Assembly: GCA_017548605.1 (NCBI GenBank)
Contig: JAFYZT010000036.1
Span: forward strand, 1-64,000
Direction: 5' to 3'
DNA from: Prevotella sp.
Lineage (GTDB): Bacteria > Bacteroidota > Bacteroidia > Bacteroidales > Bacteroidaceae
DNA length: 64,000 nucleotides
A program made the position numbers and the translations under genes. This document shows, piece after piece, positions 1 to 16,273 of the stretch (position 1 is its first letter; each line of letters begins with the position of its first letter). A model generated the notes under the pieces. The model saw only the letters and a program-made list of their open reading frames with translations, ran no database searches and was not told where the DNA came from.

Positions 1-117
1 CAAGAATACAATCCAAGATTGATAAGATGTGATGAAAAAGATCTGTTACTCAGAAAGATAGAAAGGGCAAAAAAAGCACTCTTTAAACTTGACCAAAGGC
101 TTGCGGAGGCCTCCTAA
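1..117 (+). CDS. C-terminal 38 residues of an unrecognised protein, cut by the window edge
   Basis: Frame 1 is open from the first base and closes with TAA at 115-117. The visible tail is a basic, leucine/lysine-rich helix ending in QRLAEAS, which fits a helical or coiled-coil C terminus. Too little remains to assign a family. The start lies outside the window. It could be a mobile-element protein next to the accessory island that follows, but nothing in the sequence proves that. Confidence 0.45.
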   Translation, partial: QEYNPRLIRCDEKDLLLRKIERAKKALFKLDQRLAEAS

Positions 118-167
118 ACAATTTTGTTATATGGAAGGTGCCGCGTAATTTATCCAAAGGTAGTGCA

Positions 168-233
168 AACCGCCAAATTTATACTAAATTTTGTGGTTAT
201 AACCGCCAAATTTATACCAAATTCAGCGGTTAC
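168..233. repeat. Tandem pair of 33-bp palindromic repeats
   Basis: Two adjacent imperfect copies (168-200 and 201-233) both begin AACCGCCAAATTTATAC. Each unit is itself a near-palindrome: the left arm AACCGCcAAATTT pairs with AAATTnnGCGGTT at its right end, slightly degenerate in the first copy. They lie between the truncated gene at the left edge and the 3' end of the leftward ATPase gene. The arrangement could be a protein-binding site, an end of a mobile unit, or a paired hairpin in RNA. Confidence 0.7.
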
Positions 234-238
234 CCCTT

Positions 239-289
239 TTCCCCTCCCTTGGGGAGGGTCAGGGTGGGTGTTAGGGTCAGGGTGGGTAT
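239..289 (+). repeat. CCCTCCC/GGGAGGG hairpin repeat, with right half duplicated
   Basis: The core CCCCTCCCTTGGGGAGGG forms a tight hairpin and is followed by TCAGGGTGGGT. The segment TTAGGGTCAGGGTGGGTA repeats the right half. The same element recurs at 9956, 16378, 20284, 23519, 30437 and, degenerate, 38181. The rest of the 118-358 gap holds only this repeat, the palindromic pair before it and AT-rich DNA. Confidence 0.8.
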
Positions 290-358
290 TTCCTTTAACT
301 TCTTACCTATTCTTCACTCCCCATGAAATATGAAATTTTATAAGTGAAAAAGCTGGGC

Positions 359-1678
359 TTATAAATTCAGGGACACCTCTTCTAGAAGAAATGGTATGAC
401 TCCGACATACATGATGCCGTCTTCATCTGTCCATGCTTTCACGTTTCCATCAAGAATGACAATCTTACGGAAAAAATCGCCGGAGTTCTTCAGGGAGAAT
501 GTTTCCTGGCTCCGCTTGTCCTCTGTATCCACATTCAAAGCCGACTGGATGTAGATTCTCTCACGTCCCATGTTGACCACAAAGTCAATCTCATATTGCG
601 ACTGCTGCCTCTTCCCGTCCTTGACACGGGTGAGTTCCACCATGCCCACATCCACATTGTATCCCCTGCGCACAAGTTCGATGAAAATCATGTTCTCCAT
701 CAAGTGAGACTTCTCCTGCTGCCGGAAATTGAGCTTGGCATTTCTCAGTCCCAAATCCATGGAATAGTATTTCTGCGTGTTCTCGAAATATCGTTTGCCC
801 TTGATGTCATAGCGCTTGGCGCTGACAAACAGGAAGGCATCTTCCAGATAGTCCAGGTAGTTCTTGATGGTATGGTCTGACGTGTTCCGTCTCATCAACG
901 TGCCTGCGGTATTGGCAAGCTTGTGTGGATTGGTTAACGAGCCTACAGCAGATGACAACGAGTCTATCAAGGCTTCCAACACCTCGTCATCTTTGAGTTT
1001 GTAACGTTCCACGATATCCTTGATATACACATTCTTGTGAAGCCCCTTCAGATACCTGCGCTTTTCAGCCTCGTCCTTTTCCAAAACCGCCAACGGCATG
1101 CCGCCAAACATTAGATATTCCTCCAGCGCATCTGCTTTCTCCAATCCTGACACGGAATGGAATTCCTTGAACGACAGCGGATAGACCTTGATTTCCGTGC
1201 CACGGTCGCGGAAGTTGGTGACAATGTCCCTTGACAGCATCTTGGAGTTGGAGCCGGTGACATAGATATCCAGGTTGCTCCGTGCTATCAAATCATTCAG
1301 AATGTCATAGAACGTGGTGTAGAGCATATCCCTGTCTTCCTCGGGAACCACACTTTCGTCTACATCCCCGTTCTTCACCTTGAATGACAGCTGAATCTCG
1401 TCGATAAAAACATAATAGTTTTTTTCAGCATCTTGTGTCCGGCTGAGGACGTACTTGTACAGCTCGTTTGGGTTTCTGTACTTCAAATCGGCTTTCTTGT
1501 CCAAAGCTATTTCCACGAAACAGTCATCAGTGACTCCCTCTGTTTTGAGGTGTCTCTTGTAAAGGGTGGACAGGAGGAAGGATTTGCCGCAGCGACGGAT
1601 GCCCGTGATGATCTTCACCTTCCCGTTCCATCGCTTGCTCAACAATGCCTCTACATAATGGTCTCTCTTGATAATCAT
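359..1678 (-). CDS. AAA+ ATPase of the AAA_14/DUF4143 type
   Basis: A 439-residue ATPase. The Walker A motif GIRRCGKS is at residues 26-33 and Walker B VFIDEIQ near 90-96. A typical DUF4143 C-terminal half follows, ending in a PD-(D/E)XK-like segment with YEIDFVVN and IYIQSAL. I chose the ATG at 1678; the frame opens from a TTG at 1687, which adds only three residues. Such genes occur in many copies in Bacteroidetes genomes and their function is unsettled. It is transcribed divergently from the vWA/tubulin operon. An intact palindrome sits at its promoter. The family call is firm; a role in defence or mobile-element biology would be speculation. Confidence 0.9.
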   Translation of the reverse strand: MIIKRDHYVEALLSKRWNGKVKIITGIRRCGKSFLLSTLYKRHLKTEGVTDDCFVEIALDKKADLKYRNPNELYKYVLSRTQDAEKNYYVFIDEIQLSFKVKNGDVDESVVPEEDRDMLYTTFYDILNDLIARSNLDIYVTGSNSKMLSRDIVTNFRDRGTEIKVYPLSFKEFHSVSGLEKADALEEYLMFGGMPLAVLEKDEAEKRRYLKGLHKNVYIKDIVERYKLKDDEVLEALIDSLSSAVGSLTNPHKLANTAGTLMRRNTSDHTIKNYLDYLEDAFLFVSAKRYDIKGKRYFENTQKYYSMDLGLRNAKLNFRQQEKSHLMENMIFIELVRRGYNVDVGMVELTRVKDGKRQQSQYEIDFVVNMGRERIYIQSALNVDTEDKRSQETFSLKNSGDFFRKIVILDGNVKAWTDEDGIMYVGVIPFLLEEVSLNL

Positions 1679-1698
1679 TGCTTCCAACAGTATTGATG

Positions 1699-1721
1699 CA
1701 AATATGGTCGAATAATTCGAC
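1699..1721 (-). promoter_or_regulatory. Promoter -7 region with perfect 15-bp palindrome for the DUF4143 ATPase
   Basis: On the minus strand CATATTTG (1699-1706) is a one-mismatch version of the Bacteroidetes -7 box, about 20 bases upstream of the start codon. Immediately upstream lies the perfect palindrome GTCGAATAATTCGAC (1707-1721). A palindrome abutting the -7 box is the expected place for a repressor or autoregulatory operator. Confidence 0.5.
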
Positions 1722-1889
1722 TATTTTTGCAGTGCAAAAGTATGCTGTTTTTTTGAAATAAGCAAGAAAAGAGACACTTATTTGCTTTTTAGCCTTATTT
1801 TTTTAGACGGATTTGAACGGATTCTCCCTATTTTTAATAAGTAAGCAACGTCACCACCTTGTTGTCCTGTTGTATCTTTTGCATATGGC

Positions 1890-1923
1890 TTAACTCCTTT
1901 AACTCCTTAACTTCTTAACTTCA
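1890..1923 (+). repeat. 8-bp periodic repeat (TTAACTCC family)
   Basis: Four consecutive near-copies of TTAACTCC/TTAACTTC with 8-base spacing. The same type is found before the efflux pump gene at 44885-44918. The 1722-1940 stretch around it is AT-rich and holds no gene that I can support. Confidence 0.6.
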
Positions 1924-1940
1924 GATAGTTACTTCTAAAC

Positions 1941-1999
1941 TTCTCAACATAATAGTTGAGAATTATTTTTGCATTTTTCAATTTTTCTTTTTATATTTG
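1941..1999 (+). promoter_or_regulatory. Strong promoter with upstream inverted repeat, for the vWA/tubulin operon
   Basis: The -33 box TTTG (1968-1971) and -7 box TATATTTG (1992-1999) are 20 bases apart, which matches the Bacteroidetes sigma-ABfr consensus. Transcription should start near 2006. Directly upstream, TTCTCAAC (1941-1948) and GTTGAGAA (1955-1962) form a perfect 8-bp inverted repeat with a 6-base spacer, a plausible operator. The first credible start codon is about 360 bases further on, so the transcript has a long leader. Confidence 0.75.
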
Positions 2000-2021
2000 C
2001 ATCCGAGAGTATTACGACTTG

Positions 2022-2244
2022 TGGGGAAAGAGTCCCCATGTTGGTCTTTACCTTTGGTTTGAAGTGGAATAATCCACTGATAACCAATATTTTATCGTTA
2101 TAAGGAGCGTTATGCTTTTCTCGTTGAACTGAAACCTGAGAAATTTCAAGCGACAAACAAGAGGAGGCATGATGGCTCTCACGCGTATGCGTGGGGCTGC
2201 TGTCATTGCGTCTAGTTTGTCGGGTTTTCTCAGGACCTCAGTTC
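2022..2244 (+). ncRNA. Long structured leader RNA or small RNA candidate
   Basis: The region between the promoter and the vWA gene can form three strong hairpins. First, TGGGGA/TCCCCA at 2022-2038. Second, a two-part stem at 2054-2087: TTGGTT with AACCAA, enclosing AGTGGA with TCCACT. Third, a long interrupted stem at 2126-2244: GAACTGA with TCAGTTC, CCTGAGAAA with TTTCTCAGG, CGACAAAC with GTTTGTCG, and an apical CACGC/GCGTG hairpin. The long stem with internal loops resembles a 6S-like or riboregulator fold, but I cannot match it to a named family. It may be a cis-acting leader or an independent RNA. Confidence 0.55.
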
Positions 2245-2368
2245 AAAGATGCAGGCATACAGTGCCACGCTTCTTCGTATATATATATTTAACCTAAACA
2301 AGGCTTTTTATTGGTACATTGTGGAGGGCTGTTTCAAAGTTTTAAATCTATGTATTCACTATCTAATT

Positions 2369-3292
2369 ATGAAAAAGGTATTGTTGTTATTGTTTTTATG
2401 CACTTACTCTCTTGTCGCTTATAATCAAGTGCTTAAAGAGCGTAGAGTATATTATCTAGATTGTTCATATTCAATGGAAGCCAATGGAATATGGAATGAC
2501 GTTCGAGACAATCTAAAAAAGGCAATTGATAATGTCGTTGATGAAACAACAGAACTTATTGTCATACCTTTTGCTGATAACACCTCGCCCAATCCAACAT
2601 TAAAGCCGATGAAAGAATTCGCCACATCAGCAGGTAAAAAAAAGCTAAAATCTCAAATTGATGCCCTTTCGATGAATAAAAATACGATGACTTATCATTA
2701 TATACCTATTGAAGATTTCTATAACAATCGTGTTGATAACAACCGAGTGACATACATGTTTCTAATGACTGATGGCCAAGACGAGGACAAACAACAAAAA
2801 GCTTTAAAGCAGTTGCTTCCTCAATGGGGGGCAAAATTCGGTGACAAAAATGTCTATGGCTTTTATGTTATGCTTCATAAAATGGCTACTAATCCTAAAA
2901 TAGACGACGTTGCAAACAAACAAGATCACTTGTGGAAAGTAGAGACAGCGGATGTCAATATTAACCTTATTAGATTGCAATCATCTGCCATCTTCAATGC
3001 TAAAAATGACAAATATTTCGATTTGCCTATATTTGGTGATGCTTCTGGTAAATCCTTTGAGGCGGCATTTCCAAGTAATTGTCCATATAAGGTAAAGAAA
3101 AGTGACAGAATATCAAATTCACTTAGGATTTGGGTTGAATCCATTCCTGGTCAAAAACTACCTGTGAGTACAAATTATACTCTCCATATAGAGATGAAAG
3201 GCGGAGGAAAATTTGATTTCTTAGTAACAGAGAATGTATCTGTCAAATGTGAATATAAACCAGAACGTTCACTAAAAATCTCCGTGCGATGA
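2369..3292 (+). CDS. Secreted von Willebrand factor A domain protein
   Basis: A 307-residue protein with a signal peptide (MKKVLLLLFLCTYSLVAYNQ) and then a vWA fold. The metal-ion-dependent adhesion site is visible: DCSYS (DxSxS) at 31-35, a likely Thr at 106 and the TDG motif with D135. A beta-rich extension follows. The start at 2369 is preferred because it opens directly with the signal peptide; the frame extends 40 residues upstream without domain content. It overlaps the next gene by the ATGA at 3289-3292, so translation is probably coupled. vWA proteins are metal-dependent protein-binding modules. Here it is the periplasmic or surface partner of a tubulin-like GTPase. Confidence 0.88.
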   Translation: MKKVLLLLFLCTYSLVAYNQVLKERRVYYLDCSYSMEANGIWNDVRDNLKKAIDNVVDETTELIVIPFADNTSPNPTLKPMKEFATSAGKKKLKSQIDALSMNKNTMTYHYIPIEDFYNNRVDNNRVTYMFLMTDGQDEDKQQKALKQLLPQWGAKFGDKNVYGFYVMLHKMATNPKIDDVANKQDHLWKVETADVNINLIRLQSSAIFNAKNDKYFDLPIFGDASGKSFEAAFPSNCPYKVKKSDRISNSLRIWVESIPGQKLPVSTNYTLHIEMKGGGKFDFLVTENVSVKCEYKPERSLKISVR

Positions 3293-4176
3293 AAAGGTAT
3301 TTATTTATTCCATTATCAATAATTCTCATTTGCTTGTCATCGTGCAAGAAAGATGAGAGTGTGTCGTTTGGTTCTGTTGAATACTACCCAAGTTTTTTAT
3401 GGGTTGATTCAAATATGACCCCTGTAACAAAAACCTTTGATTTCGACTTTAGCCAAGATGCTAAAGATAATAATTCATATGCGGAGTTCCAGTTTGTTGA
3501 TAACGAAGGCAAACCGATAAGCACAAATGTCATGCAGGTTACAATTGATGGGAAAGAAATTGCCAATAATACGTTTCGCGTCAATAGTGATGTGTCTTCA
3601 ATAAATCTTATATTTACATTTAGCCCGAACGCTGAAGAAGGTAAATATCAAGGTTATTTGAAACTTATCAGCCACACACTCGACAGATTAGACTCACAAC
3701 CATTGACTTCTAGTCAACAAGTTGACGCATTTCAATGGACTTTGAACTTTGACGAAGGCATGAACCCATTGGCAAAAATATTGATGTGGATTGTTATCAT
3801 AATACTATTTTTACTTGCTATTTGGTTTGCTTTCCTCAAACCTGTTCTCTACCCCAAATTCGGTTCAATTCAGAAAACATTCATCGTCCCAGGAATGGCA
3901 CCTCTTGTTATCAGGTTCAAAGGGGCAAGGATGGTAGTATTGGCTGCCTCGCATCCAACGAAACAGTCTGGATGGAACAGGTTCTGGACAGGGAAAATAT
4001 TATACAAGACACATCCATCTTTCGTTTCTCCTATTACTATGCGTCCTGTGAGAAGGAATAAAGTATTATTAAAGGCTGACAGTAGCATATATCGGGTATC
4101 ACCAAATCCTATGCCAGGCATAGGAACTGCTTCCTTTGACAACATTCGTTCAAATATGCATATTACTATTAATTAA
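3289..4176 (+). CDS. Lipobox-bearing single-TM protein of the vWA/tubulin operon
   Basis: A 295-residue protein. The N terminus has a lipoprotein signal with lipobox LSSC (Cys19). Residues about 20-160 are beta-rich and should be extracytoplasmic. One hydrophobic span of about 20 residues starts near 164 (LMWIVIIILFLLAIWFAFL), leaving about 110 basic residues on the cytoplasmic side. That topology could connect the periplasmic vWA protein to the cytoplasmic tubulin-like protein encoded next. No named domain was recognised. Twelve bases separate it from the GTPase gene. Confidence 0.8.
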   Translation: MKRYLFIPLSIILICLSSCKKDESVSFGSVEYYPSFLWVDSNMTPVTKTFDFDFSQDAKDNNSYAEFQFVDNEGKPISTNVMQVTIDGKEIANNTFRVNSDVSSINLIFTFSPNAEEGKYQGYLKLISHTLDRLDSQPLTSSQQVDAFQWTLNFDEGMNPLAKILMWIVIIILFLLAIWFAFLKPVLYPKFGSIQKTFIVPGMAPLVIRFKGARMVVLAASHPTKQSGWNRFWTGKILYKTHPSFVSPITMRPVRRNKVLLKADSSIYRVSPNPMPGIGTASFDNIRSNMHITIN

Positions 4177-4188
4177 ATAATCAGAACT

Positions 4189-6951
4189 ATGCCAAACGTT
4201 AAGATTAGTAGAACCCTTTTTGTGGGTTTGGGAGGAACTGGGGTCAAGGCTATCCTCCGTGCCAAACAGTGTTTTGTTGATGCTTATGGGGAAGTCCCCC
4301 CTATGGTTGCATTTCTTGCCGTCGATACAGACAAAAAAATACGTGATGCATCCCTCCCTTCTCGAAAAGGGAGAGACGTTAAGTTCGCAGAAAACGAAAT
4401 ATGTTTCTGTGGAATCACTGGCAGCGCTCTTGATATATATCGCAATCATCTTACCCAATTCCAATGGCTTCCTCGGAGAAATGCCGCTTTTTTGGCAAAT
4501 CTTAAGAATACTGGGGCTGGCGCAGTGAGAAGTAGCGGTCGTTTCCTTGCAAGGCACAATGCAATAGAGATAGGCAATCGTGTAGCTAGTAAGGTTACGG
4601 AGATTGGCAGGCCATTACCCATTGGGAGCAAATTCGTTTATGACACCAATAAGGATGGTGTAGAGTACCCTGTTAAGGTTAATGTGGTTGGTTCCGTTGC
4701 CGGTGGTACAGGTAGTGGAACTATACTTGATATGCTTATCCTTATTGCGAAGACACTCCGTAACAGTGGCCTTTCTTATTCTATCACACCTTGGTTGGTG
4801 TTACCTGAGGTGTTCCGTCACATGGCTCCAGGTCCTGCTTCAGCCAACGTTTACCAGAATGCGTATGGAGCAATAAGAGAACTTGACTATCTTTATCACC
4901 TTCCTAAAGCCAATCAGAATGCTCTTGATTTTAATTTCGACAAAGTATATTACCTTGATGAAGGTATCGGTGATACATATTTAATCAATAATACCAACAA
5001 GGCTGGAGTCGTTTTCCAAAATATAGATGACATAACTGATTCCATCGGTCGGTGCATGTTTCTTCCTTCTAATGAGGTTGACAGCGTAAAGGACAACACC
5101 GACAATGTCAGTTTCGTATACAACATCAGAAATAAGGAAGCTCACTATGTTTCAGCAGGAAGTGCGGAAATCGTTTATGATAACCAAGCAGTGGGCAATG
5201 TTATCGCGAAAGGAATTATTGCCCAAATTTGCAATGAACTTTGCAAAACAAGTTCTGTTGATGCCCTCAAAGAAGTAAATGCATGGACAAACAGTGAGGC
5301 TGTGGCAATTCAGGAACATGATGCAGATCTCCTTACAGACAGCATCCTTCCGAAATATGCTCCATTCAGTATTATTATAGGAAAGGATGCAGACGGAAGC
5401 ACCATCGATGCTAACATTTTTGCTGGAGCTGATGCACCTAACGTTCATGAAGAAGTTAAAAATAACGAGTTAAAGAAATTTGAGAATGTTAAAATTGAAC
5501 TGAAAAAGAAAATCGAGGAAATCTTGAATACACAAAATGGTATTGGGGCTGCTCAGGCATTTCTTGAGTCTCTTTCAGACAACATTGCCATCTGTAAGGA
5601 TGAAATGAATTCTGAGGCCTCCGATTTAAGTAGATCTCTTGCATATACTTTTGATTGGAATGCAGAAATCTCAGTCCTTAGAAGCGGTCTGTTCAAGACC
5701 TTCGACAAGGATGCTGCAGATGTTCTTCAAAGCAAAATTTCAGAATATATTGCACAGAAACGCGACCTCCTTCGTCATAAATGGGCAATTCAGTTCTTCA
5801 CCGACCTTGACACATATATTAATGAACTCTCCGAGAACGTCAGCGTTCTTAAATCTATTGTTGAAGCTACAGAAAGAAGACAGAGAAGAGATATTAACGC
5901 AATACAGCAGCGAGCTAAATCTGACTCAAAATTCCAAATATATCTCCACTCTGCTGACGTTGATCATTTTGTACTTCCTAATGTGAATGAGACTTCAGCT
6001 CTTTTTAGAAACCTGCATCCTATCTATACGCTTTTCAATAAAACCGAAGATGAACTCTGCGACATACTTTTTAACTTCACCAAGAATCAACAATCTGTTA
6101 TCAGTGCTGTTAATGTCACGATTGAAGATAAGATGCGTTCTATGACTGAAGAACAGCTCAAGATCATTTTTGCAAAGGTCAAGGAAATGTCAAGTCCTCT
6201 TTGGTCAACCAATACTCAAGGCTATCTTGATCGTGCACAGGAGCTTACCACTGTCTTCACGATAGGTGTATATGACCAATCCTCAGGAATTCTTAAGGAT
6301 AAATATATAGATGATTTTACTCTTGGTACAATCAAGCCAACTTTTGCTACCACTCACGAAAATGATAGAATCACTTTCTTCCAAAGCCAATGCTACAGTC
6401 CTGCATATGCTGTCAACAATATGATTGGCTATTTGAAGGAAGCAGAAGAAAAGTTCAAATCAGAGTCATATCCTGTATGTTATTTGGACGAGATGTGGTA
6501 TCAAAGGATGATTGTAGAAGGATTTGATATCATGCCGAAGCAAGAAAAAGACAGGGTGCTTCCTAACTGGGCAAATGCTATTGTCTATGGTTTCATTAAG
6601 TATAACGAAGACCGTAAAACTTATTATATCGAGTCAGAACAGGGAGATATCCTTTCTGGTGGTTTCCTAGAACTTGGCCAAAGAAGAGACCTCGCTTTTG
6701 ACCAGTTTCAGATTCGTGGACTAGACAAGGAGGTGGAAAGCCGTTTGCAGCAGATGATTCTTGAACAGGGTCGTCCTGCAGTTACCGCAGTTATCAAATC
6801 TGCTAAATCTAATATCAGAAACTACGTTTCTCAGCTCGCACAACTAAGTACGATTGAGTATGACCGTATCATTGCAAATGATCCTGCATATAAAATGGTG
6901 CGTGACATGCTTGAGAAAGAAGTTATTTACTTGAAGGAACTAGATGTCTAA
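4189..6951 (+). CDS. FtsZ/tubulin-like GTPase (Tubulin_2 / FtsZl-1 type)
   Basis: A 920-residue protein whose first 220 residues carry the tubulin/FtsZ nucleotide-binding signatures: the glycine-rich opening GLGGTGV at 13-19 and the tubulin signature GGTGSGT at 172-178 followed by a hydrophobic helix. The remaining 600 residues are largely helical, far longer than FtsZ (about 350-450). It is therefore not the division protein. This is the family described by comparative genomics as FtsZ-like family 1, noted for linkage to vWA genes and proposed to remodel membranes. Here it sits between a membrane-spanning protein and a transglutaminase-domain protein. GTP binding and polymerisation are inferred from family. 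Confidence 0.87.
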   Translation: MPNVKISRTLFVGLGGTGVKAILRAKQCFVDAYGEVPPMVAFLAVDTDKKIRDASLPSRKGRDVKFAENEICFCGITGSALDIYRNHLTQFQWLPRRNAAFLANLKNTGAGAVRSSGRFLARHNAIEIGNRVASKVTEIGRPLPIGSKFVYDTNKDGVEYPVKVNVVGSVAGGTGSGTILDMLILIAKTLRNSGLSYSITPWLVLPEVFRHMAPGPASANVYQNAYGAIRELDYLYHLPKANQNALDFNFDKVYYLDEGIGDTYLINNTNKAGVVFQNIDDITDSIGRCMFLPSNEVDSVKDNTDNVSFVYNIRNKEAHYVSAGSAEIVYDNQAVGNVIAKGIIAQICNELCKTSSVDALKEVNAWTNSEAVAIQEHDADLLTDSILPKYAPFSIIIGKDADGSTIDANIFAGADAPNVHEEVKNNELKKFENVKIELKKKIEEILNTQNGIGAAQAFLESLSDNIAICKDEMNSEASDLSRSLAYTFDWNAEISVLRSGLFKTFDKDAADVLQSKISEYIAQKRDLLRHKWAIQFFTDLDTYINELSENVSVLKSIVEATERRQRRDINAIQQRAKSDSKFQIYLHSADVDHFVLPNVNETSALFRNLHPIYTLFNKTEDELCDILFNFTKNQQSVISAVNVTIEDKMRSMTEEQLKIIFAKVKEMSSPLWSTNTQGYLDRAQELTTVFTIGVYDQSSGILKDKYIDDFTLGTIKPTFATTHENDRITFFQSQCYSPAYAVNNMIGYLKEAEEKFKSESYPVCYLDEMWYQRMIVEGFDIMPKQEKDRVLPNWANAIVYGFIKYNEDRKTYYIESEQGDILSGGFLELGQRRDLAFDQFQIRGLDKEVESRLQQMILEQGRPAVTAVIKSAKSNIRNYVSQLAQLSTIEYDRIIANDPAYKMVRDMLEKEVIYLKELDV

Positions 6952-6957
6952 TACTAT

Positions 6958-9888
6958 ATGGCATTTTTCATTGTAATAGGTACTAACAATGATGTTAAAG
7001 GTGTTGTAGATGAGGTTAAAAAATCTCATCTACAACAAGATGTCATAACATCAGGATGCATCATTAGTGAAGAAGATGGTTTGTATTATCAATGGGATGT
7101 TTTCAATGAGAAGGGAAATAAAACCCAGGAGAGTAAGGGGTCTGTCGTCCTTCAAGATGCGTTGACAAATCAGATATCCCAGTTTAAAACCTTGCTTCCT
7201 GATAATGCTATTCCCAACGTTTTCATCGTTTCGAAGTGTTTCGATGAAGAAGAGTGTAATACACTGCAAATGGTATACGAAGAGTTGTGTCAAATTGGAG
7301 GTGCCAAACTTAGTGGCCTACTAATTGATATCGTTCTCATAGGATATGACATAAATAAGCCTGAGGATGTTACTATACGCCCTCACTGGAGGTTGTTGGA
7401 ATCAATTCGAGGGTTAGGTGAAGGTTGCCTTTTCCATACTAATATTCTCTATGTTAACAACATGGACTATATGGGTGCGGCCACCAATGTTGATTCTCGA
7501 GTGTTCAGCAAATTCCTCTGTCACTGGTCAAAAATGGTATGTTCTGGTGGTTATGACCCTAGGGCTACAGTCAAGTCAAATGTCTACTCTATCGGAATGT
7601 CAGAGCATCAATATGATTTCCGAGACCTTGATGAGTTTTTTAAACTATCTGCTGAAGAGCGGCTTCTTGACAGGACATTGAACGACAGCCCTTCATTAGA
7701 CACACAAGAACTCCTTGATACCAACTATTTCAAGAAGATTGACCTTGACCTCCCTTGGCTTGATGGCCTTTGCATCATTCAGTCTATTTGGAATACATAT
7801 TGTACTATGCAATGGAATCCGTCAAAACTCCTCAGAAATAATGGATATTCAGTTTCACAGCAGGAATTAATAATTGCATCATATCTTAATTTGTTTTTGA
7901 AATTGTACATTTCGGAAGAAGAACGTGAGATTGACATCCTCAATGCTGAGATATCTCAGAAAGAAGTAGATAAAACCGAGTGCTCTGAAAACCTAAAAAA
8001 AATAACCGAGCGAACAGAAGAAGATGAGGCAAAGTCCGCACAGATTGATGATTTAAATAAAAGAATTGCCCAATTGGATTCGGAAATAGAGGCTTGTAAG
8101 ATTCAAATCCTGCGACATAAAAGGAACATTTTGAACAACACTTTCCTAGATGCGGATGAATTCCATGAAAGATTCGGTACTATGGACCTTCTCACAGAGG
8201 ATGATGAGCACGCTTATGAAACAAATAAGGCTGACGTTGAACGGCTGACAGATTACGTTAAATCTGAGGCTGGTATTAAAGTTATGCGAGAAGCAGTTGA
8301 AAGGGCTACTACTCAGGATATCCTACCTGGTCCTCCCCCAAAATCAGAAGTTTTGAATATGGGGCGAGTCAAGGCTATCGTAATAGAGGAAACTTCTTCT
8401 AATTTACAACCTTTGGCCAATACACCGAGTCCTGAGAACCAAAGCGAAAGATCTGGTTGCCTTTTTTGGTTTAAATCCTTGTTCAATAGGAATAAATTGG
8501 TTGAAGGAGAAATGGAAACCGCACCTCTAGAAGCTACACAATTCGTTAATCCAGAACGAATTACGAAAGAAGAACGTAAGTCATTAAATGACACACTTGG
8601 CAAGTCTGTTGTTGCTATAAAAAAAGCTGATGATGTTCGTAGTTGGTGGAAGCGTCTCTGTGAAATCATAGAAAGGAATCAGAAGCGGTTGGCAGAATGT
8701 AAACTTCTTATGGATGGAGAAAGGGATGTCAATGGTGAATATGTTCCTGGTAAAGAAGGCTATCTTCCAGAACAACATAGAAAATCCACCTCACTTATTG
8801 ATATGGATAGAGTTCGCAACTTCCGTGACTCTGATGTCCACTATAAGCAGAATATCGCCGAGTTCCTTGACCGATGGTTCGACAAAACCATTGAACTTGA
8901 TAAGAGAATAACAATGCTTGAACTCATCAAGCATCAGGTTCTTGACCCGCTTGAGGGAAAATTCCATACGCTCCATTGGGACGGAAGTAATCCATTCGTA
9001 AAGGAAGAGATTGCTGACGAGGAAATACACGAATACATTGAGCATGATTTAAAGCAATCAAAGCCCTTTGTTGAATATGTCCGTATTGAAGAAACTAATC
9101 TAGTTACCAATTTGAGCGTCGGATTCTTCTCGAATAACCAGAATATTCCTACTGACTATACGGAATTCAAGAATAGGTATAAAATCAGTTCAGAATCTCT
9201 TATCCCTGTATACCTTAGGGATTTTGTGAACTCACTCTGCGTCATTCAAATAATGGATATTCCTGACCATGTCGATGCTCTGAAGGATTTCAAACCTAGA
9301 AGAGAGGCCTCGTTAAGCAGGTTGAATACAGACATCAGGGCCGAAGCCACCACAATCATTGGAGAAGCAAATACTGTCGAAGAAAAGGCAAGAACAATCT
9401 ATAACTGGATTTGCGATAATATCGCATATGATACAACCAAACAGATTCACGATGCAGAAACCTGTTACAAAACAAGAAGGGGCGTCTGCCAAGCATATTG
9501 CGAACTCTTTTGTTACATGGTAGAGGCAGTGGGCTTGACAGCAGACATCATTACAGGCATTACAAAAAATAATGATGGCAATATCTCATCAGACAAGCAT
9601 TCATGGGTATTCGTGTACATCCGCGGGTATGAAGGAATCCTAATTGATCCTACCTGGGGTGCAGGTGCTGTCGATGGTGTGAAATTCGTCAAAAGTGAAG
9701 ATTATTCTGCCTGGTTTAATGTCTCTCCGTATTGGATGATATTTAGCCACTTCCCAGACCAGCAGTATTGGTCAAAGCTTGATATTAACATTACTGAAGA
9801 GCAGTTTGAAAAGCTACCGATTGTTGAGATGAACAATGAAACGGATGGCAAGGACTATCTTTTTGAGTGTTTGTGTGGCCAGCACTGA
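6958..9888 (+). CDS. Large coiled-coil protein with C-terminal transglutaminase-like domain
   Basis: A 976-residue protein starting 6 bases after the GTPase stop. The N-terminal 130 residues look like an alpha/beta domain. Residues about 318-392 are a charged coiled coil. A short aromatic stretch (LFWFKSLF) lies near 500. Residues about 800-930 are a transglutaminase-like cysteine peptidase fold with a complete triad: Cys844 in RGVCQAYC, His881 in KHSW and Asp897 in LIDPTWG. No signal peptide is seen, so it is probably cytoplasmic with the GTPase. It may cleave, crosslink or only bind peptides; the intact triad favours activity. Its last 98 bases overlap a convergent gene. Confidence 0.85.
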   Translation: MAFFIVIGTNNDVKGVVDEVKKSHLQQDVITSGCIISEEDGLYYQWDVFNEKGNKTQESKGSVVLQDALTNQISQFKTLLPDNAIPNVFIVSKCFDEEECNTLQMVYEELCQIGGAKLSGLLIDIVLIGYDINKPEDVTIRPHWRLLESIRGLGEGCLFHTNILYVNNMDYMGAATNVDSRVFSKFLCHWSKMVCSGGYDPRATVKSNVYSIGMSEHQYDFRDLDEFFKLSAEERLLDRTLNDSPSLDTQELLDTNYFKKIDLDLPWLDGLCIIQSIWNTYCTMQWNPSKLLRNNGYSVSQQELIIASYLNLFLKLYISEEEREIDILNAEISQKEVDKTECSENLKKITERTEEDEAKSAQIDDLNKRIAQLDSEIEACKIQILRHKRNILNNTFLDADEFHERFGTMDLLTEDDEHAYETNKADVERLTDYVKSEAGIKVMREAVERATTQDILPGPPPKSEVLNMGRVKAIVIEETSSNLQPLANTPSPENQSERSGCLFWFKSLFNRNKLVEGEMETAPLEATQFVNPERITKEERKSLNDTLGKSVVAIKKADDVRSWWKRLCEIIERNQKRLAECKLLMDGERDVNGEYVPGKEGYLPEQHRKSTSLIDMDRVRNFRDSDVHYKQNIAEFLDRWFDKTIELDKRITMLELIKHQVLDPLEGKFHTLHWDGSNPFVKEEIADEEIHEYIEHDLKQSKPFVEYVRIEETNLVTNLSVGFFSNNQNIPTDYTEFKNRYKISSESLIPVYLRDFVNSLCVIQIMDIPDHVDALKDFKPRREASLSRLNTDIRAEATTIIGEANTVEEKARTIYNWICDNIAYDTTKQIHDAETCYKTRRGVCQAYCELFCYMVEAVGLTADIITGITKNNDGNISSDKHSWVFVYIRGYEGILIDPTWGAGAVDGVKFVKSEDYSAWFNVSPYWMIFSHFPDQQYWSKLDINITEEQFEKLPIVEMNNETDGKDYLFECLCGQH

Positions 9889-11140
9889 AATTGAAGGCTT
9901 TTCTTAGACCTCTATTGGCGGTGCTGCGCCATGCTTTTTTTACTAGGATTGGTATTCTTCCCCTCCCTTTGGGAGGGTTGGGGTGGGTATTACCTAACCA
10001 CTTATCAAAGAATTCCATCATCTTCTCTTGGTCGGCCAACGGACAACCATGTGGATGGTCAAGAATCAATGTCTCTAACCGGTCGTCAACACCTTGGCTG
10101 CGCCATACCTCATGCATCGTGGCAAATGCTGCTTCTACACCGGGCAGGGGGAAGAGTTTGTCGGTACGTCCTGCGATGAAGAGCATGGGCTGTGGACAGG
10201 CCAGCGAGGCGATATGGGGATAGTCCAGCCACTGTCGTAGTGCGGGTATGCAGTTGGCGAAACCGCCGTTCTCCTTCCTGCCGTAGCGATGGGTGAGCTG
10301 TGCCTCAGTCGTCACCATCCAACAGATGGTACATGACGCTTTGATGCGGTCGCTCAGCGCGGCAAGCATCCAACTGCGATAGCCGCCCATCGAACAGCCG
10401 GCACAGCCGATACGCTCAGGGTCGACTTCGGGCAAGGAGGCCAGAAACTCCGTACCTGCCATATCGTCATAGGTCATCATAGCCGACAGGTCGCGACCGA
10501 GCATCATCATGTTACCTGCGATGATGTCGTATTTGTTACGGTCCACACCCTCCCGACGGCCGCGCTCACCCCACAACGGTGCGTCGGTGGTGAACACCAC
10601 ATAGCCGCGACGGGCCAACTCGTCACCCAGATATCGGCCGTCGTACAGGTTGGTAACCCATGCGTCGGCATCCTTCACTACGGCACTGTCAACAGCAAAG
10701 GGCTTCACCATCTTCTCCTTGCCGATGCTCAGGTGGGCACCATGGTCGTGTAATAGGTTGATAGCGGGAAAGGGTCCCTTGCCGTCGGGCACAAGCAGGT
10801 AGGCCTTCACACGGTAGTAACGCGAAAGCGAAAACTCTATCTTCTTGGCGGTATAGCCGTCGCGTCGCTCCTCACCAAGCACCGTCATGGCATAGTCCTC
10901 AGCAACGGGAGGCGCTGTCATCATGCACTCCAGAACCTTGGCCCTGGCTTTCTTCTTCCATTTAGAAAAGCGTTTCTCCTTGTCATGTCCCCATGCCAGG
11001 GGATAGGTAAGGTCAGCCTGTAACTGCTCCACCCATGTGGGAATCTCATTTTGGTATTCGTACCCCCACGTGTCGGTCTGCCCATGCACAGAGAGAAGCG
11101 ACATACAGGCTGCTATGAATAAAAAGACGGCTTTTTTCAT
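9791..11140 (-). CDS. Secreted alpha/beta hydrolase (dienelactone hydrolase/acetyl esterase type) with aberrant C terminus
   Basis: A 449-residue protein with a signal peptide (MKKAVFLFIAACMSLLSVHG). The alpha/beta hydrolase fold shows a nucleophile elbow GCSMGG, the acid region AGRTDK and the histidine in DHPHGCP, so the triad is complete. Likely substrates are ester groups on plant polysaccharides, by family resemblance. The fold should end near EFFDKWLG, around position 10005. The frame then continues through a CCCTCCC repeat, translated as HPNPPKGRG, and about 170 more bases, ending inside the opposite-strand transglutaminase gene. The last 65 or so residues are probably not native. Confidence 0.85.
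   Translation of the reverse strand: MKKAVFLFIAACMSLLSVHGQTDTWGYEYQNEIPTWVEQLQADLTYPLAWGHDKEKRFSKWKKKARAKVLECMMTAPPVAEDYAMTVLGEERRDGYTAKKIEFSLSRYYRVKAYLLVPDGKGPFPAINLLHDHGAHLSIGKEKMVKPFAVDSAVVKDADAWVTNLYDGRYLGDELARRGYVVFTTDAPLWGERGRREGVDRNKYDIIAGNMMMLGRDLSAMMTYDDMAGTEFLASLPEVDPERIGCAGCSMGGYRSWMLAALSDRIKASCTICWMVTTEAQLTHRYGRKENGGFANCIPALRQWLDYPHIASLACPQPMLFIAGRTDKLFPLPGVEAAFATMHEVWRSQGVDDRLETLILDHPHGCPLADQEKMMEFFDKWLGNTHPNPPKGRGRIPILVKKAWRSTANRGLRKAFNFSAGHTNTQKDSPCHPFHCSSQQSVAFQTALQ
9956..9992 (+). repeat. CCCTCCC/GGGAGGG hairpin repeat inside the esterase 3' end
   Basis: CCCCTCCCTTTGGGAGGG followed by TTGGGGTGGGT, the same element as at 239. It lies within the extended reading frame of the leftward esterase, coding for the HPNPPKGRG stretch, and marks the boundary of the AT-rich island. 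Confidence 0.8.
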
Positions 11141-11162
11141 GGAAAATCGTTGTTTGTGGTTA

Positions 11163-11170
11163 CAAAAATA
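11163..11170 (-). promoter_or_regulatory. -7 box for the alpha/beta hydrolase
   Basis: Minus-strand TATTTTTG lies 22 bases upstream of the start codon at 11140. It is an exact TAnnTTTG match. No convincing TTTG -33 box was found at the right distance. Confidence 0.5.
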
Positions 11171-11248
11171 GTGTTTTTTGCGCTTTTCGTGTTAATTTTT
11201 TTTGAAAAACCGAAAATAATCATTTATTTTGCAAACAAATCAAACGAA

Positions 11249-11285
11249 AGGTAAAAGGGTAAAAAAGTAAAAGAGTAAAAAGGGA
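11249..11285 (+). repeat. 8-bp periodic repeat (GTAAAARR family)
   Basis: Four consecutive GTAAAA units at 8-base spacing. The same family occurs at 48130-48161 and, reverse-complemented, at 30339-30395. The remainder of the 11171-11433 intergenic region holds a weak -7-like TTATTTTG at 11224-11231 and direct repeats of TTAACTCCCA at 11340-11400. No gene is supported there. Confidence 0.65.
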
Positions 11286-11433
11286 AGTGATAGAAGGAAG
11301 TTATTAAAGGAAGTGAAAGGTGGAGTAATGTCCATTTTAACTTCCACTTTAACTCCCATGAGCGAAGCGAATTAACTCCCACTTTAACTCCCAATTCCCA
11401 AGGATTTATCAATAACCAATAAAACAATATGCG

Positions 11434-12048
11434 ATGAAAAAAATCTTTATGGCTTTGGCTATGGCCGTTCTTTCCGTGCCATCGTTCGCACAGACAAGTA
11501 GCGGCGGTTTCTCGCTCGACGAGGAACATCTGTATTATGGTGTGCGTGTTGGTTTCAATGTCTCTGGCATTAGCGGCGAGAAGAATATTAACGAGTATTC
11601 CGACTCCAAGGCGGGTATGGTGCTCGGTGGTGTCATCGGACTCAGAGTGTCGAACTCCGCACCTGTTTTCCTTGAGAGTGGCCTCTACTATTCCGAGAAA
11701 GGTGGCAAGAGAGGTAATGAAAAGGTGAGTCTCAACTACCTCGAGATACCCATCCTTATCAAATATGGCTTCAAAGTTACGGATGATATCTCCGTCATTC
11801 CATTGCTCGGTCCTTATTTCTCCATGGCCATCAGTGGTAAGGCGAAGACCGAAGAGGGCAAGCACAGTTCATTCAACGATGGTTGGTTCCGTCATCCTGA
11901 CATGGGCTTCAAGATTGGCTGCGGTGCTGAATACAGCAACCTGTATCTGGAAATGGGATACCAGTTCGGCATTGCCGATATCAGCGATGCTGACAACTAT
12001 TCAGCTCACGGACACAACTTCTTCATGAACTTCGGCGTGAACTTCTAA
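11434..12048 (+). CDS. PorT-like outer membrane beta-barrel protein
   Basis: A 204-residue protein with a cleavable signal (MKKIFMALAMAVLSVPSFAQ) and alternating amphipathic beta-strands typical of small outer membrane barrels: YYGVRVGFNVSGI near the start, FLESGLYYSEKGGK, LYLEMGYQFGIADIS, and a final strand ending FMNFGVNF with terminal Phe. This is the PorT/outer-membrane-barrel_2 family, common in Bacteroidetes. The ligand is unknown. It stands alone, followed by a strong bidirectional terminator. Confidence 0.82.
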   Translation: MKKIFMALAMAVLSVPSFAQTSSGGFSLDEEHLYYGVRVGFNVSGISGEKNINEYSDSKAGMVLGGVIGLRVSNSAPVFLESGLYYSEKGGKRGNEKVSLNYLEIPILIKYGFKVTDDISVIPLLGPYFSMAISGKAKTEEGKHSSFNDGWFRHPDMGFKIGCGAEYSNLYLEMGYQFGIADISDADNYSAHGHNFFMNFGVNF

Positions 12049-12087
12049 ATAGTCAAACGAAACGACGTTTTTTTGAAGTAGATATAT

Positions 12088-12128
12088 AGCAAAAAGCGAC
12101 GGAATTTCCGCCGCTTTTTGCTTTTCTT
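12088..12128. terminator. Bidirectional hairpin terminator
   Basis: AGCAAAAAGCG (12088-12098) pairs with CGCTTTTTGCT (12112-12122), enclosing a second short stem GGAA/TTCC. The arms supply a T-run on either strand. It separates the rightward barrel gene from the leftward lipoprotein gene. Confidence 0.85.
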
Positions 12129-12143
12129 GTTTTTGGTATGAAA

Positions 12144-12569
12144 TTAATTCAAAACAGTTTCGTCAATTGTCGTCTTGCCTCGTTTTACTGATACTTTGGC
12201 CCCGTTGGGAAGGGCTGATCTGATGGCTGACGAAAATGCGAGAACCACTTCGTTGAACGCGATTTTTACTGCAGCATCGTTAGTGAGGTCCGTTCCGCCG
12301 GTAACAATAAACTGTCTGGTGGATTTGTCTGAAGTCCATCCCTTGCCGTTGAACTTGAGATAGAAAGCCTCGTCAATGGCTTGTTCTGCTTGTGCTGCCG
12401 CAATTTTGGCCTCGGAGGTGGCACTCGATGGAGGAGTGGTGTCTTTCAGTTCCCAATTGTAAGTGGTTTTCTTCGGTCCGCTGTCATCATCGTCACTACC
12501 ACAAGACATCAATGCGAAAGGCAGGCAGATTACTACCATTGCCATCAAAATTTTGAAATAGTTTTTCAT
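12144..12569 (-). CDS. Small lipoprotein of unknown function
   Basis: A 141-residue protein. Its signal peptide ends in lipobox LMSC (Cys22-23 region), followed by an acidic GSDDDD run, the usual surface-export-like feature of Bacteroidetes lipoproteins. The mature part is short and mixed alpha/beta, ending TTIDETVLN. No family was recognised. It has its own promoter and terminator, so it is a single-gene unit. Confidence 0.75.
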   Translation of the reverse strand: MKNYFKILMAMVVICLPFALMSCGSDDDDSGPKKTTYNWELKDTTPPSSATSEAKIAAAQAEQAIDEAFYLKFNGKGWTSDKSTRQFIVTGGTDLTNDAAVKIAFNEVVLAFSSAIRSALPNGAKVSVKRGKTTIDETVLN

Positions 12570-12614
12570 CTTTTTCGTTTAGTTATTAGTTAATGATTCA
12601 TTAGTTATTTTCGG

Positions 12615-12622
12615 CAAAAGTA
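12615..12622 (-). promoter_or_regulatory. -7 box for the 12144-12569 lipoprotein
   Basis: Minus-strand TACTTTTG is an exact match to TAnnTTTG, 45 bases upstream of the start codon at 12569. Confidence 0.6.
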
Positions 12623-12735
12623 GGTATTATTTTCCGTTTCGCCAAAAAAAACACTATTTTTCTTCCATTTCGTCGTTCTTCGCATGTCACTCATCGTTTT
12701 TTATGCCCATTCTCCTTTATCTCCGTTTTTTATTG

Positions 12736-12743
12736 TAATTTTG
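12736..12743 (+). promoter_or_regulatory. -7 box for the FAD oxidoreductase gene
   Basis: TAATTTTG followed by CA is a clean -7 box. Transcription would start near 12750, giving a leader of about 98 bases whose second half is almost purely pyrimidine-rich repeat. Confidence 0.6.
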
Positions 12744-12783
12744 CAAGCAAATATACTTTCAACAAGTCTATAATCAGCAAAGT

Positions 12784-12846
12784 AATCTCTCACCTCTCAC
12801 CCCTCACCCCTCTCTTACCCCTCACCTCTCACCCCTTACCCCTTTC
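12784..12846 (+). repeat. 7-bp periodic repeat (CTCACCC) abutting a start codon
   Basis: About nine consecutive heptamers of the type CTCACCY, with some CCCCTTA variants, run to within two bases of the ATG at 12848. The leader therefore lacks any purine-rich ribosome-binding site. The same repeat type occurs at 37513-37545. Confidence 0.8.
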
Positions 12847-12847
12847 T

Positions 12848-14458
12848 ATGCTCAAGGAAAAACAAATACGACTATTGCCACAACAGGCAGTCTCCGAAGC
12901 GACCATTCGTGAGGCCATAGCACGCGACATGGCCATCGATGCCCGCACCATCACCCACGTCAGGGTACTCAAGCGAAATATCGATGCACGTCATCGTACC
13001 ATCTTCGTCAACCTCACCGTGCGTGTTTATATCAATGAAGAACCCACCGATGAGGCCTTCCCTCTGACAGTCTATCCTGACGTGTCGGCCAGACCTCAGG
13101 TGGTGGTGGTCGGTGCTGGACCGGCAGGTCTCTTTGCCGCCCTTCGACTCATTGAACTGGGATACAGGCCTGTGGTGCTGGAACGTGGTAAGAACGTACG
13201 TGAAAGAAAGACAGACCTGGCTCGTATCACCAAAACGCAGAAAGTAGATCCCGAGAGCAACTATTGTTTCGGCGAGGGTGGGGCAGGAGCCTACTCCGAC
13301 GGCAAACTGTACACACGCTCGAAGAAGCGGGGTAACACGGAGAAAATCCTACATGTTTTTTGCCAGCACGGTGCTTCCACAAACATTCTTTCCGTTGCCC
13401 ATCCGCATATAGGCACCGACAAACTGCCGGCGGTCATCGAGAACATACGCAACACCATCATAAAAGCTGGTGGTGAGGTACATTTCCAAACCAAGATGAC
13501 GGCGTTGATGATGAAGGACGACAGGGTGGTGGGTGTGGTGGCTCAACGTCTTGATACTGGTGAGGAAAAAACATTCTCCGGTCCGGTTATTCTGGCCACG
13601 GGTCATTCGGCACGCGATATCTACCGTTATCTCGACCAATCAGATATCGCTATTGAACCGAAAGGCATCGCCGTAGGGGTACGGCTGGAACACCCTGCAC
13701 AGCTCATCGACAGCATACAATACCACAACCCCAATGGACGAGGAAAATACCTGCCGGCAGCAGAATACAGTTTTGTTACGCAGGTTGACGGCCGAGGAGT
13801 ATATTCTTTCTGCATGTGTCCGGGAGGCTTCGTCATACCGGCAGCCACGGGGCCACAGCAGGTGGTTGTCAATGGCATGAGTCCGAGCAACCGCGGCACG
13901 AAATGGTCGAACAGTGGCATGGTGGTGGAAACATCACCGGAAGATGCGTTGGCGTTCCTGAAGGAGATGGGGCACCCCGCAGACCGTCCAAACCTTGCGG
14001 TGATGGAATACCAGGAACAGCTTGAACAGATGTGCTGGCAACAGGCCAATAGGTCACAACGGGCACCAGCGCAACGCATGGCCGACTTCGTAAAGGGACG
14101 CCTCAGCTACGACCTGCCTGTCTCCTCCTACGCACCGGGACTGATTGCTTCGCCCTTGCATTTCTGGATGCCCAAGCCCGTCGTCTCCCGTCTGCAGAAA
14201 GCGTTCACCGAATTTGGTAAGAAAAGTCACGGATTTCTTACAAACGAGGCCACACTCATCGCCATCGAGACACGCACATCGTCACCCATACGCATCCTCC
14301 GCGACAGCACCACGCTATCTCACATACAGCTGAAGGGCCTCTTCCCCTGTGGAGAAGGAGCCGGCTATGCCGGTGGTATCGTCTCTGCTGCCGTCGATGG
14401 TGAGCGATGCGCCGAACAATGCGCGACTTTAATGACGAGTGACTATAGTGGCGAGTGA
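12848..14458 (+). CDS. NAD(P)/FAD-dependent oxidoreductase (COG2509 type)
   Basis: A 536-residue flavoprotein. The N-terminal 85 residues form a small alpha/beta domain seen in this family. The FAD-binding Rossmann motif VVVGAGPAGLFAA begins near residue 91, followed by VVLERG. A conserved FGEGGAGAYSDGKL segment comes next, and the C terminus closes the FAD site with GLFPCGEGAGYAGGIVSAAVDG. Length and architecture match the uncharacterised FAD-dependent dehydrogenase family; the substrate is unknown. It is monocistronic, between its own promoter and a strong hairpin. Confidence 0.87.
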   Translation: MLKEKQIRLLPQQAVSEATIREAIARDMAIDARTITHVRVLKRNIDARHRTIFVNLTVRVYINEEPTDEAFPLTVYPDVSARPQVVVVGAGPAGLFAALRLIELGYRPVVLERGKNVRERKTDLARITKTQKVDPESNYCFGEGGAGAYSDGKLYTRSKKRGNTEKILHVFCQHGASTNILSVAHPHIGTDKLPAVIENIRNTIIKAGGEVHFQTKMTALMMKDDRVVGVVAQRLDTGEEKTFSGPVILATGHSARDIYRYLDQSDIAIEPKGIAVGVRLEHPAQLIDSIQYHNPNGRGKYLPAAEYSFVTQVDGRGVYSFCMCPGGFVIPAATGPQQVVVNGMSPSNRGTKWSNSGMVVETSPEDALAFLKEMGHPADRPNLAVMEYQEQLEQMCWQQANRSQRAPAQRMADFVKGRLSYDLPVSSYAPGLIASPLHFWMPKPVVSRLQKAFTEFGKKSHGFLTNEATLIAIETRTSSPIRILRDSTTLSHIQLKGLFPCGEGAGYAGGIVSAAVDGERCAEQCATLMTSDYSGE

Positions 14459-14535: not shown

Positions 14536-15405
14536 TTACAGGCTCTCGTAGCTGCCGTTGAACGTGGTGGTGTTCATGTCGCCAGTCTGGTAGCCGCGTT
14601 TCAGCCAACGCATACGCTGCTGGGCAGTACCGTGGGTGAAACTCTCCGGTTGAGAATAACCCTGCGCCTGCTTCTGCAAGTAGTCGTCGCCGATATGCTG
14701 GGCACAGTTGATGGCTTCCTGCAAGTCGCTGTCGTCCAACGAGCCGAACTGTTTGTCCTCGTAATGGGCCCAAACACCGGCATAATAGTCTGCCAACAAT
14801 TCCAAACGAACGCTGATCTGGTTGGCCTTCGTCTTGTTCGATGACTGCATCTGCGAATGTGCCTGACCCAGTGAACCCAACAGGTTTTCCACATGGTGGC
14901 CTACCTCATGGGCTATCACGTAGGCACGGGCAAAGTCACCGCCCGACTTCAGCTGCGTTTCCATCTGTTTGAAGAAACTAAGGTCAATATACAGTTTCTG
15001 GTCGCCAGAGCAATAGAAGGGACCGACGGCTGCAGTGGCTCCACCACAGGTGGTCTGCACCGAACCGCTGAATACGACCAACGTCGGCGGGGTGTACTTA
15101 CGACCCATACGCTGGAACACCTGGGTCCACACATCCTCGGTACTGGCCAGAATCTGCTTGCAGAACTTCACCTGCTCCGCTTCCTCAGCCGTCTCTTGGT
15201 ATGGCTCCGTCGATACTTCCGTCTCTTGTGAGCCAAAGCCCATGCTGCCTGCGTTCTGGAGCACTTCCAAGGGGTTACCGCCCATCAAAAGGGTAATCAG
15301 ACCTACAAGAATCAGACCGCCAATACCCATGCCGGCTTTCGATGAGCCACTCATGCCGCGTCTGTCCTCGAAATTGTCACTCTCTCTGCGTCCGTCAAGT
15401 TTCAT
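14536..15405 (-). CDS. ypfJ: YpfJ-type neutral zinc metallopeptidase
   Basis: A 289-residue protein. One hydrophobic segment lies near residues 26-42 (GIGGLILVGLITLLMGG), so it is anchored in the inner membrane with the catalytic part outside. The zinc motif HEVGH is at 166-170, followed by an ELLADYYAGVWAH segment that supplies the third ligand region. Length and motifs fit the neutral zinc metallopeptidase family. The physiological substrate is unknown. It has its own -7 box. Confidence 0.9.
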   Translation of the reverse strand: MKLDGRRESDNFEDRRGMSGSSKAGMGIGGLILVGLITLLMGGNPLEVLQNAGSMGFGSQETEVSTEPYQETAEEAEQVKFCKQILASTEDVWTQVFQRMGRKYTPPTLVVFSGSVQTTCGGATAAVGPFYCSGDQKLYIDLSFFKQMETQLKSGGDFARAYVIAHEVGHHVENLLGSLGQAHSQMQSSNKTKANQISVRLELLADYYAGVWAHYEDKQFGSLDDSDLQEAINCAQHIGDDYLQKQAQGYSQPESFTHGTAQQRMRWLKRGYQTGDMNTTTFNGSYESL

Positions 15406-15442
15406 ATCGTTAAATTTATTGGTTTTTAGATGGTTTAGGCTG

Positions 15443-15450
15443 CAAATATA
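15443..15450 (-). promoter_or_regulatory. -7 box for the zinc metallopeptidase
   Basis: Minus-strand TATATTTG is an exact -7 box, 37 bases upstream of the start codon at 15405. Confidence 0.65.
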
Positions 15451-15605: not shown

Positions 15606-15642
15606 CGGAAAAGAATGTCTAACAAAAAATACCTTACCGACC

Positions 15643-16269: not shown

Positions 16270-16273
16270 ACAT

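Follow-up and report, generated by a model that had tools for sequence, protein, structure and literature searches.

The 64,000-nucleotide stretch of Prevotella sp. DNA analysed here (positions 1 to 64,000 of contig JAFYZT010000036.1, assembly GCA_017548605.1; hereafter the window) carries at positions 2369-9888 four consecutive genes that raise the question of what a tubulin-like GTPase might do in the company of a secreted vWA protein, a membrane anchor and a peptidase. A sequence-only reading of this region had proposed an envelope-spanning device, with the vWA protein outside, a tether through the membrane and a polymer with its effector inside. This arrangement is supported by the present analyses, which place a vWA protein, one transmembrane (TM) helix and a tubulin with its partner in that order. 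Computation shows the gene set and its co-inheritance, the tubulin fold, and the exchange of one peptidase for another with catalytic residues kept. The reading that we favour, with a probability of ca. 0.42, is that the module serves a conflict or stress response via regulated proteolysis, as a protease switch leading from the envelope to the cytoplasm.

Gene set, tubulin fold and co-inheritance

As had been noted from the sequence, the four open reading frames (ORFs; 2369-3292, 3289-4176, 4189-6951 and 6958-9888, all on the plus strand) are tightly packed and separated, in order, by a 4-base overlap, a 12-base gap and a 6-base gap. The first, which opens at 2249 and whose start was taken at 2369, encodes a secreted vWA protein with a DCSYS motif and a Pfam VWA match (E 8.8e-5, 23.2 bits) falling just below the curated cut-off of 23.8. 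The second encodes the anchor, composed of an LSSC motif, a periplasmic part, a single TM helix (residues 164-182 by hydropathy) and a cytoplasmic tail, and matches no Pfam family above its cut-off. We take these two motifs to be of the MIDAS (metal ion-dependent adhesion site) type and lipobox-like, respectively. Among 84 tubulin loci, the vWA and anchor parts are fused in 40, split in 37 (in 5 of which the anchor only was found) and both absent in 7; because of the 40 fused cases the two genes, which are split in the window, are regarded here as encoding one divided protein.

The product of 4189-6951 matches Tubulin_2 (PF13809) with an E value of 3.8e-46 (158.4 bits, cut-off 27) and has a glycine loop of the T4 type, GGTGSG, at residues 172-177 (4702-4719), in which G172, G173, T174, G175 and G177 are kept in 70 of 70 alignment rows (the loop names T1, T4 and T7 being those that we take to apply to tubulin). 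Helices occur between residues 403 and 576 and beyond, in the coiled-coil or helical part that follows the N-terminal domain. The predicted structure is a complete tubulin fold, with GTPase and C-terminal domains and a mostly helical insert at ca. 400-675, in line with the sequence-only reading of this product as tubulin-like. When the tubulin profile was searched against the sequences of solved structures, neither FtsZ nor a tubulin was among the 21 matches listed up to E 10; the kinship to tubulin rests on the fold of the model; an early profile comparison with five sequences had given a weak C-terminal match only (E 0.0068). Taken together, Tubulin_2 above its cut-off, a loop of the GTP-binding type, the helical part and a vWA gene with a MIDAS motif in the same operon support the proposed membership in the FtsZl1 family, the GTPase activity being predicted from sequence.

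Relatives were collected by a profile scan of genome contigs with five tubulins (alignment A1), which yielded 89 relatives and 80 kept loci, mostly in metagenome-assembled genomes of Bacteroidales but also in Chitinophagales, Fibrobacter, Flavobacteriaceae and a few others; a single-sequence scan of the contigs found no relative. The 84 tubulin genes counted comprise the scan loci, the window and three same-genus loci, after removal of three duplicates (L064, L090 and L019, of L013, L014 and L026; L numbers are our locus labels). Among the 77 with at least 1.8 kb of upstream sequence, 70 are directly preceded on the same strand by vWA and anchor (65 of 72 once the near copies L034, L088, L076, L100 and L099 are removed; 72 of 79 in a looser count retaining the short but positive loci L037 and L097), so that the co-inheritance which the sequence-only reading depended on is borne out for these genes. 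Alignments A10 and A11 omit L034, L088, L076, L100, L013, L014, L012 and the window, as well as tubulins shorter than 800 aa and proteins that have fewer than 100 or more than 650 aa.

The distribution is patchy. Of 393 genomes from the order, 3 have a tubulin of the window type at E<=1e-20, and Tubulin_2 was detected in 10 of 60 relatives, 8 of them above the family cut-off (own genome included in both counts). The genome of the window has a second, different copy of the module, of the papain type described below (L012). More distant same-genus Tubulin_2 loci (L015, L016, L018, L020 and L021) have other neighbouring genes, and several types of Tubulin_2 system seem to coexist in the genus.

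The third protein and its exchangeable peptidase

With vWA and anchor regarded as one, the product of 6958-9888 is the third protein of the module. Pfam, profiles and the predicted model divide it into a diverged N-terminal alpha/beta domain, a coiled coil and a C-terminal transglutaminase-like peptidase (Transglut_core at residues 797-892, 9346-9633; E 6e-18, 65.5 bits, cut-off 23) whose aligned triad is C844/H881/D897 (D897 codon at 9646-9648). The peptidase triad that had been seen in a cytoplasmic coiled-coil protein is thus present; the transglutaminase itself, which had been taken for a part of the system, is not a general one. Among 398 genomes of the genus, 2 (one of them that of the window) have a full-length relative of the third protein; in the other 35 genomes with matches, those listed span the transglutaminase domain or part of it only. 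Elsewhere a papain or calpain domain replaces it.

Of the genes that lie downstream on the same strand (82, of which 79 are distinct), 63 (61 distinct) have a papain-type domain, or 56 of 74 when five near copies are left aside, and the catalytic residues of these domains are kept almost throughout (Gln in 63 of 63; Cys, His and Asn in 62 of 63 each). Pfam searches covered 74 of these 79 genes (sets A3 and A4 of 35 and 39 proteins; L037, L065, L066, L080 and L081 are missing). Peptidase_C1 was detected in every protein of the set of 39 and in 20 of the set of 35, the latter also having Peptidase_C2 in three proteins and Transglut_core in two; the calpain types were viewed individually for L085 and L093, L079 being deduced from the count of three. 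Among solved chains, 3ois is nearest to the papain type (E 5.8e-49). In L025, the third protein has no recognised peptidase and a gene for a DA1-like peptidase lies 4 bases downstream. Separately, in L048 a 992-aa protein without a Pfam match (15358-18336) comes directly after the third gene of a Fibrobacteraceae locus in which no peptidase was recognised.

The peptidase also differs in position, being in the middle of the protein in the papain type (527-718 in L013), within the tubulin-like part in the calpain type (230-426 in L085, with tubulin matches flanking it in the group profile) and C-terminal in the window. In a tree of 81 tubulin rows, whose midpoint root serves the drawing alone, the window and L026 as the transglutaminase pair join four loci without recognised peptidase (100), and the calpain clade sits with the peptidase-less L089 and L097. 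A further part of the tree holds the 61 papain loci, accompanied by three Fibrobacteraceae loci that lack a peptidase and by three rows left undecided. The three positions and this placement are most easily read as separate gains of the peptidase types, with losses.

Beyond its peptidase, what had been called a coiled-coil protein rather looks, from profile evidence, like a second tubulin relative that lacks the nucleotide loops: pattern searches located a T4 loop of the GGTG type in all 81 tubulins and a T1-type loop in 79 of them, and neither in any of 75 third proteins longer than 600 aa. Pfam finds Tubulin_2 in the third proteins of L097 (1.5e-9) and L089 (2e-7), and in profile comparisons the tubulins match this pair at 9.4e-8 and 4.6e-6 and the calpain types at 3.8e-6 to 1.5e-5, both tubulin ends being covered in each case. 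The match to the papain type (2.7e-5) is C-terminal only, the N-terminal half reaching 0.01 at best, and that to the window group is 1.5e-4. Third proteins also match one another, with 2.2e-6 and 2.4e-6 for the window group against the papain type, 9e-8 for calpain against papain types and 1.1e-9 for L089/L097 against the papain type; the N-terminal alpha/beta domain of the window protein is related to the partner protein of other loci, and its link to tubulin runs via this chain of profiles, being weak directly. No match was obtained between tubulins and Fibrobacter third proteins (0.02), which yet match the papain type over their full length at 3e-105, nor between the window group and the calpain type (0.09) or L089/L097 (0.03). 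Apart from one value of 8e-4, no reversed-profile control was better than 0.02, and the vWA-anchor profile reached 0.035 at best.

Weighing against tubulin kinship is the predicted model of the window third protein, which is poor (56.7, with low confidence mostly beyond ca. residue 200), shows no visible tubulin kinship in its fold and resembles an Rpn10 entry and small GTPases over residues 1-199. Such fold matches, together with the weak or absent direct tubulin matches of several third types, would be expected if the third protein were no tubulin relative but a Rossmann domain of the vWA or Ras kind borne by a coiled-coil peptidase carrier, a reading that overlaps all three functional readings considered below. 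We consider it improbable in view of Tubulin_2 in two relatives, of the matches of L089/L097 and calpain-type profiles to both tubulin ends, and of the low confidence of the model past the region that gave the fold matches. A pseudotubulin is, on these comparisons, the likely identity of the third protein across the family; in the window it is unproven.

Function and genomic setting

For the pairing, the activation, the target and the defence role we infer the following scheme. The vWA protein, outside the inner membrane, would together with the anchor relay a signal through one TM helix to the cytoplasmic tail, which would contact the GTP-binding tubulin-fold protein. The latter may pair, in the manner of alpha/beta-tubulin, with the third protein as a nucleotide-loop-less tubulin relative bearing a cysteine peptidase, and its assembly or GTP cycle would gather or unlock the peptidase to cut cytoplasmic proteins. 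The likeliest use would be a response to conflict or stress (phage, envelope damage) that disables cell or invader, the peptidase slot being filled in the window by the transglutaminase-like peptidase. That the peptidase type changes within one and the same partner, that its catalytic residues are conserved and that the module is patchily distributed all agree with an effector controlled in this way.

Defence was among the roles that the sequence-only reading had thought possible, and one line of evidence in its favour comes from plasmids. A tblastn search of plasmids found three Thermales plasmids whose tubulin is ca. 30% identical over the first 350 residues and which all encode, in order, vWA, tubulin, a protein of ca. 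680 aa and brxL, with an insertion sequence element before brxL in Allomeiothermus. The T. oshimai BrxL matches the PADLOC model at 6.8e-102, brxL of the other two being record annotation. HmaC, HmaB and HmaA match at E 0 one gene from vWA on the Meiothermus plasmid, models for DrmD, DrmMI and DruE match genes beyond brxL on that of Allomeiothermus, and the T. oshimai neighbours are annotated in the record as a RecQ helicase and an exonuclease. Between the Thermales vWA protein and the fused vWA-anchor of Bacteroidota, the alignment spans 481 columns at 1.3e-21, compared with 0.013 for the reversed control; for the ca. 680-aa protein, profile comparison detected no similarity to Bacteroidota third proteins. 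A phage search returned one record matching the tubulin at 28.8%. No PADLOC 2.0.0 model matches the four window proteins (best E 0.34) or the tubulin and third protein of L012; LmuB reached 0.0025 with the calpain-type third protein of L093.

In Bacteroidota, a defence island as the general setting was not supported: the flanks (86 adjacent and 84 distal genes, in 77 and 118 families with 25 listed each) show mostly housekeeping families among those listed. Endonuclease_NS recurs beside the module in 7 of 86 adjacent genes and occurs in at most 1 of 84 distal ones, since it is missing from the listed distal families with two or more members; DUF1016_N was found in 2 adjacent genes. An Ion_trans gene (Pfam) follows the module in L040, with relatives in L063 and L027, and a GH25 gene does so in L026. 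Genes for a His-Ser repeat protein, a radical SAM protein and a small partner were observed near papain-type modules (L013 133-4262, L028 8033-11356, L035 and L044), a set which we take to be the His-Xaa-Ser radical-SAM set. A defence role is thus suggested by the Thermales plasmid context and the swapping of effectors, without a general island context in Bacteroidota.

Mostly housekeeping flanks would also suit envelope stress or quality-control signalling without a conflict role, with the vWA protein as a sensor of protein misfolding in the envelope and a regulator as the substrate of the peptidase; a periplasmic vWA domain with a MIDAS-type motif joined through one TM helix to a cytoplasmic peptidase fits it as well. 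The very patchy distribution, the two different copies in one genome and the nuclease and ion-channel genes beside some copies speak against this explanation, which we hold to be rather doubtful. Quite unlikely is a membrane-remodelling or vesicle machine whose polymer bends or organises membrane while the peptidase only matures parts, as the swapping of peptidase type and place, the patchy presence in the order and the brxL/Hma context are better explained by a regulated effector, even if Makarova and Koonin read FtsZl1 with vWA and membrane proteins in this way and hydropathy gives at least two TM helices in 42 of 66 third proteins longer than 1000 aa (two duplicate loci included).

The switch that we favour may extend, tentatively, to a class of tubulin-gated proteases, in which a GTP-binding tubulin and a nucleotide-free sister form an obligate pair, a vWA receptor switches the peptidase from outside, and the sister took up a papain, calpain or transglutaminase peptidase at three places of its chain. 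Such a device, built on a pair of cytoskeletal proteins and arisen independently of alpha/beta tubulin, would serve bacterial immunity or cell death. If true, a bacterial tubulin would act as a signal switch for proteolysis, and paired tubulin, with one member devoid of a nucleotide site, would have had a second origin.

Of the AT-rich island proposed for this locus, the base composition of the window module stands (39.2% GC against 50.5% for 10.5-64 kb); as a general property it was not supported, the median GC difference over 69 related loci being -0.013, with 24 lower by more than 0.03 and 19 higher. The contig begins ca. 2.4 kb upstream of the vWA gene, and no tRNA was found in the window. 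The single strong promoter that had been claimed is only partly borne out, by a promoter-like TTTG-N-TAnnTTTG site at 1968-1999 (plus strand, motif scan). It lies ca. 370 bases 5' of the point where the vWA gene starts, and a long structured leader occupies the space between. This consensus, which we take to be the Bacteroidota promoter type, has 9 matches in the window against 1.37 expected by shuffles; sigma-70 sites show no excess (26 against 24.5 expected).

The leader contains a structured hairpin at 2106-2260 (plus strand; folding z -6.1 for 2100-2265) with two-sided changes in 20 of 39 consensus pairs (6 copies), a member of a widespread element present in 111 of 150 Prevotella genomes in up to 8 copies. 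An ORF of at least 100 aa begins within 150 bases downstream in 24 of 40 copies, the downstream side only being counted, and no Rfam family matches at gathering score in positions 1-13000, leader included. Among 51 loci searched it occurs in the tubulin loci L023, L027 (70 bases before vWA) and weakly L067. It may be an RNA leader or a mobile hairpin. By eye, it was also seen 5' of genes resembling the His-Xaa-Ser radical-SAM set in L174 and, in L173, L177, L178 and L183, before a two-gene set whose second product is ion-channel-like, of a kind also present beside tubulin modules. A terminator-like hairpin with a T run (9916-9931, plus strand, hairpin scan) follows the last stop, and a REP-like palindrome, CCCTCCCTTNGGGAGGG, has 9 copies in the window with at most 2 mismatches (e.g. 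at 242, 9961, 16380 and 20289), none being expected by chance.

Comparison with known systems

Operons of FtsZl1 and vWA genes were described in 2010 by Makarova and Koonin as a likely membrane-remodelling system (PMC2875224). The window set shares with them the Tubulin_2 N-terminal domain with GGTG loop, the coiled coil, the helical end and the MIDAS vWA gene. It differs in having a peptidase, since the main text of that paper contains no papain, protease, peptidase or transglutaminase, and in the fold, for which the paper left T6-H7 unplaced and reported no C-terminal-domain similarity whereas the model here is complete with an insert; the third partner and the peptidase swap are likewise not described in its passages on the family. 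A literature search found no assigned function for FtsZl1 proteins and, supplements being outside its scope, no publication on a tubulin partner bearing a papain, calpain or transglutaminase peptidase. A conserved partner whose cysteine peptidase is exchangeable and retains its catalytic residues, together with the link to brxL islands in Thermales, provides a concrete effector candidate.

The transglutaminase domain has counterparts in Prevotella proteins of ca. 490 aa, which are 37-47% identical to it (longer matches) and share its GVCQ / H / DPTW motif in the ORFs viewed; these mostly stand alone with a signal-like N-terminus, whereas the window domain ends a protein without signal peptide. 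Genes of BREX (brxL, on three Thermales plasmids) and of Hma, DISARM and Druantia (on two) adjoin the vWA-tubulin pair, and none of these is among the four genes of the window.

In conflict biology there is a likeness with the GTPase-centred systems of the GAP1-N2 type, for which Kaur et al. described tubulin with vWA in 2020 (PMC7159879). That study also reports NucA together with peptidases, and VMAP proteins that in rare cases have a transglutaminase-like domain. In common with the window are a tubulin with coiled coil and an extracellular vWA protein with a TM segment, and the Firmicutes versions have two tubulin genes, related systems having peptidase and NucA effectors. Bacteroidota sets like that of the window do not figure in its GAP1-N2 passages, and no DO-GTPase, GAP1 or P-loop GTPase was found by Pfam in the four genes, no GAP1-specific model having been searched. 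Unlike in the GAP1-N2 systems, the peptidase of the window is built into the partner protein itself.

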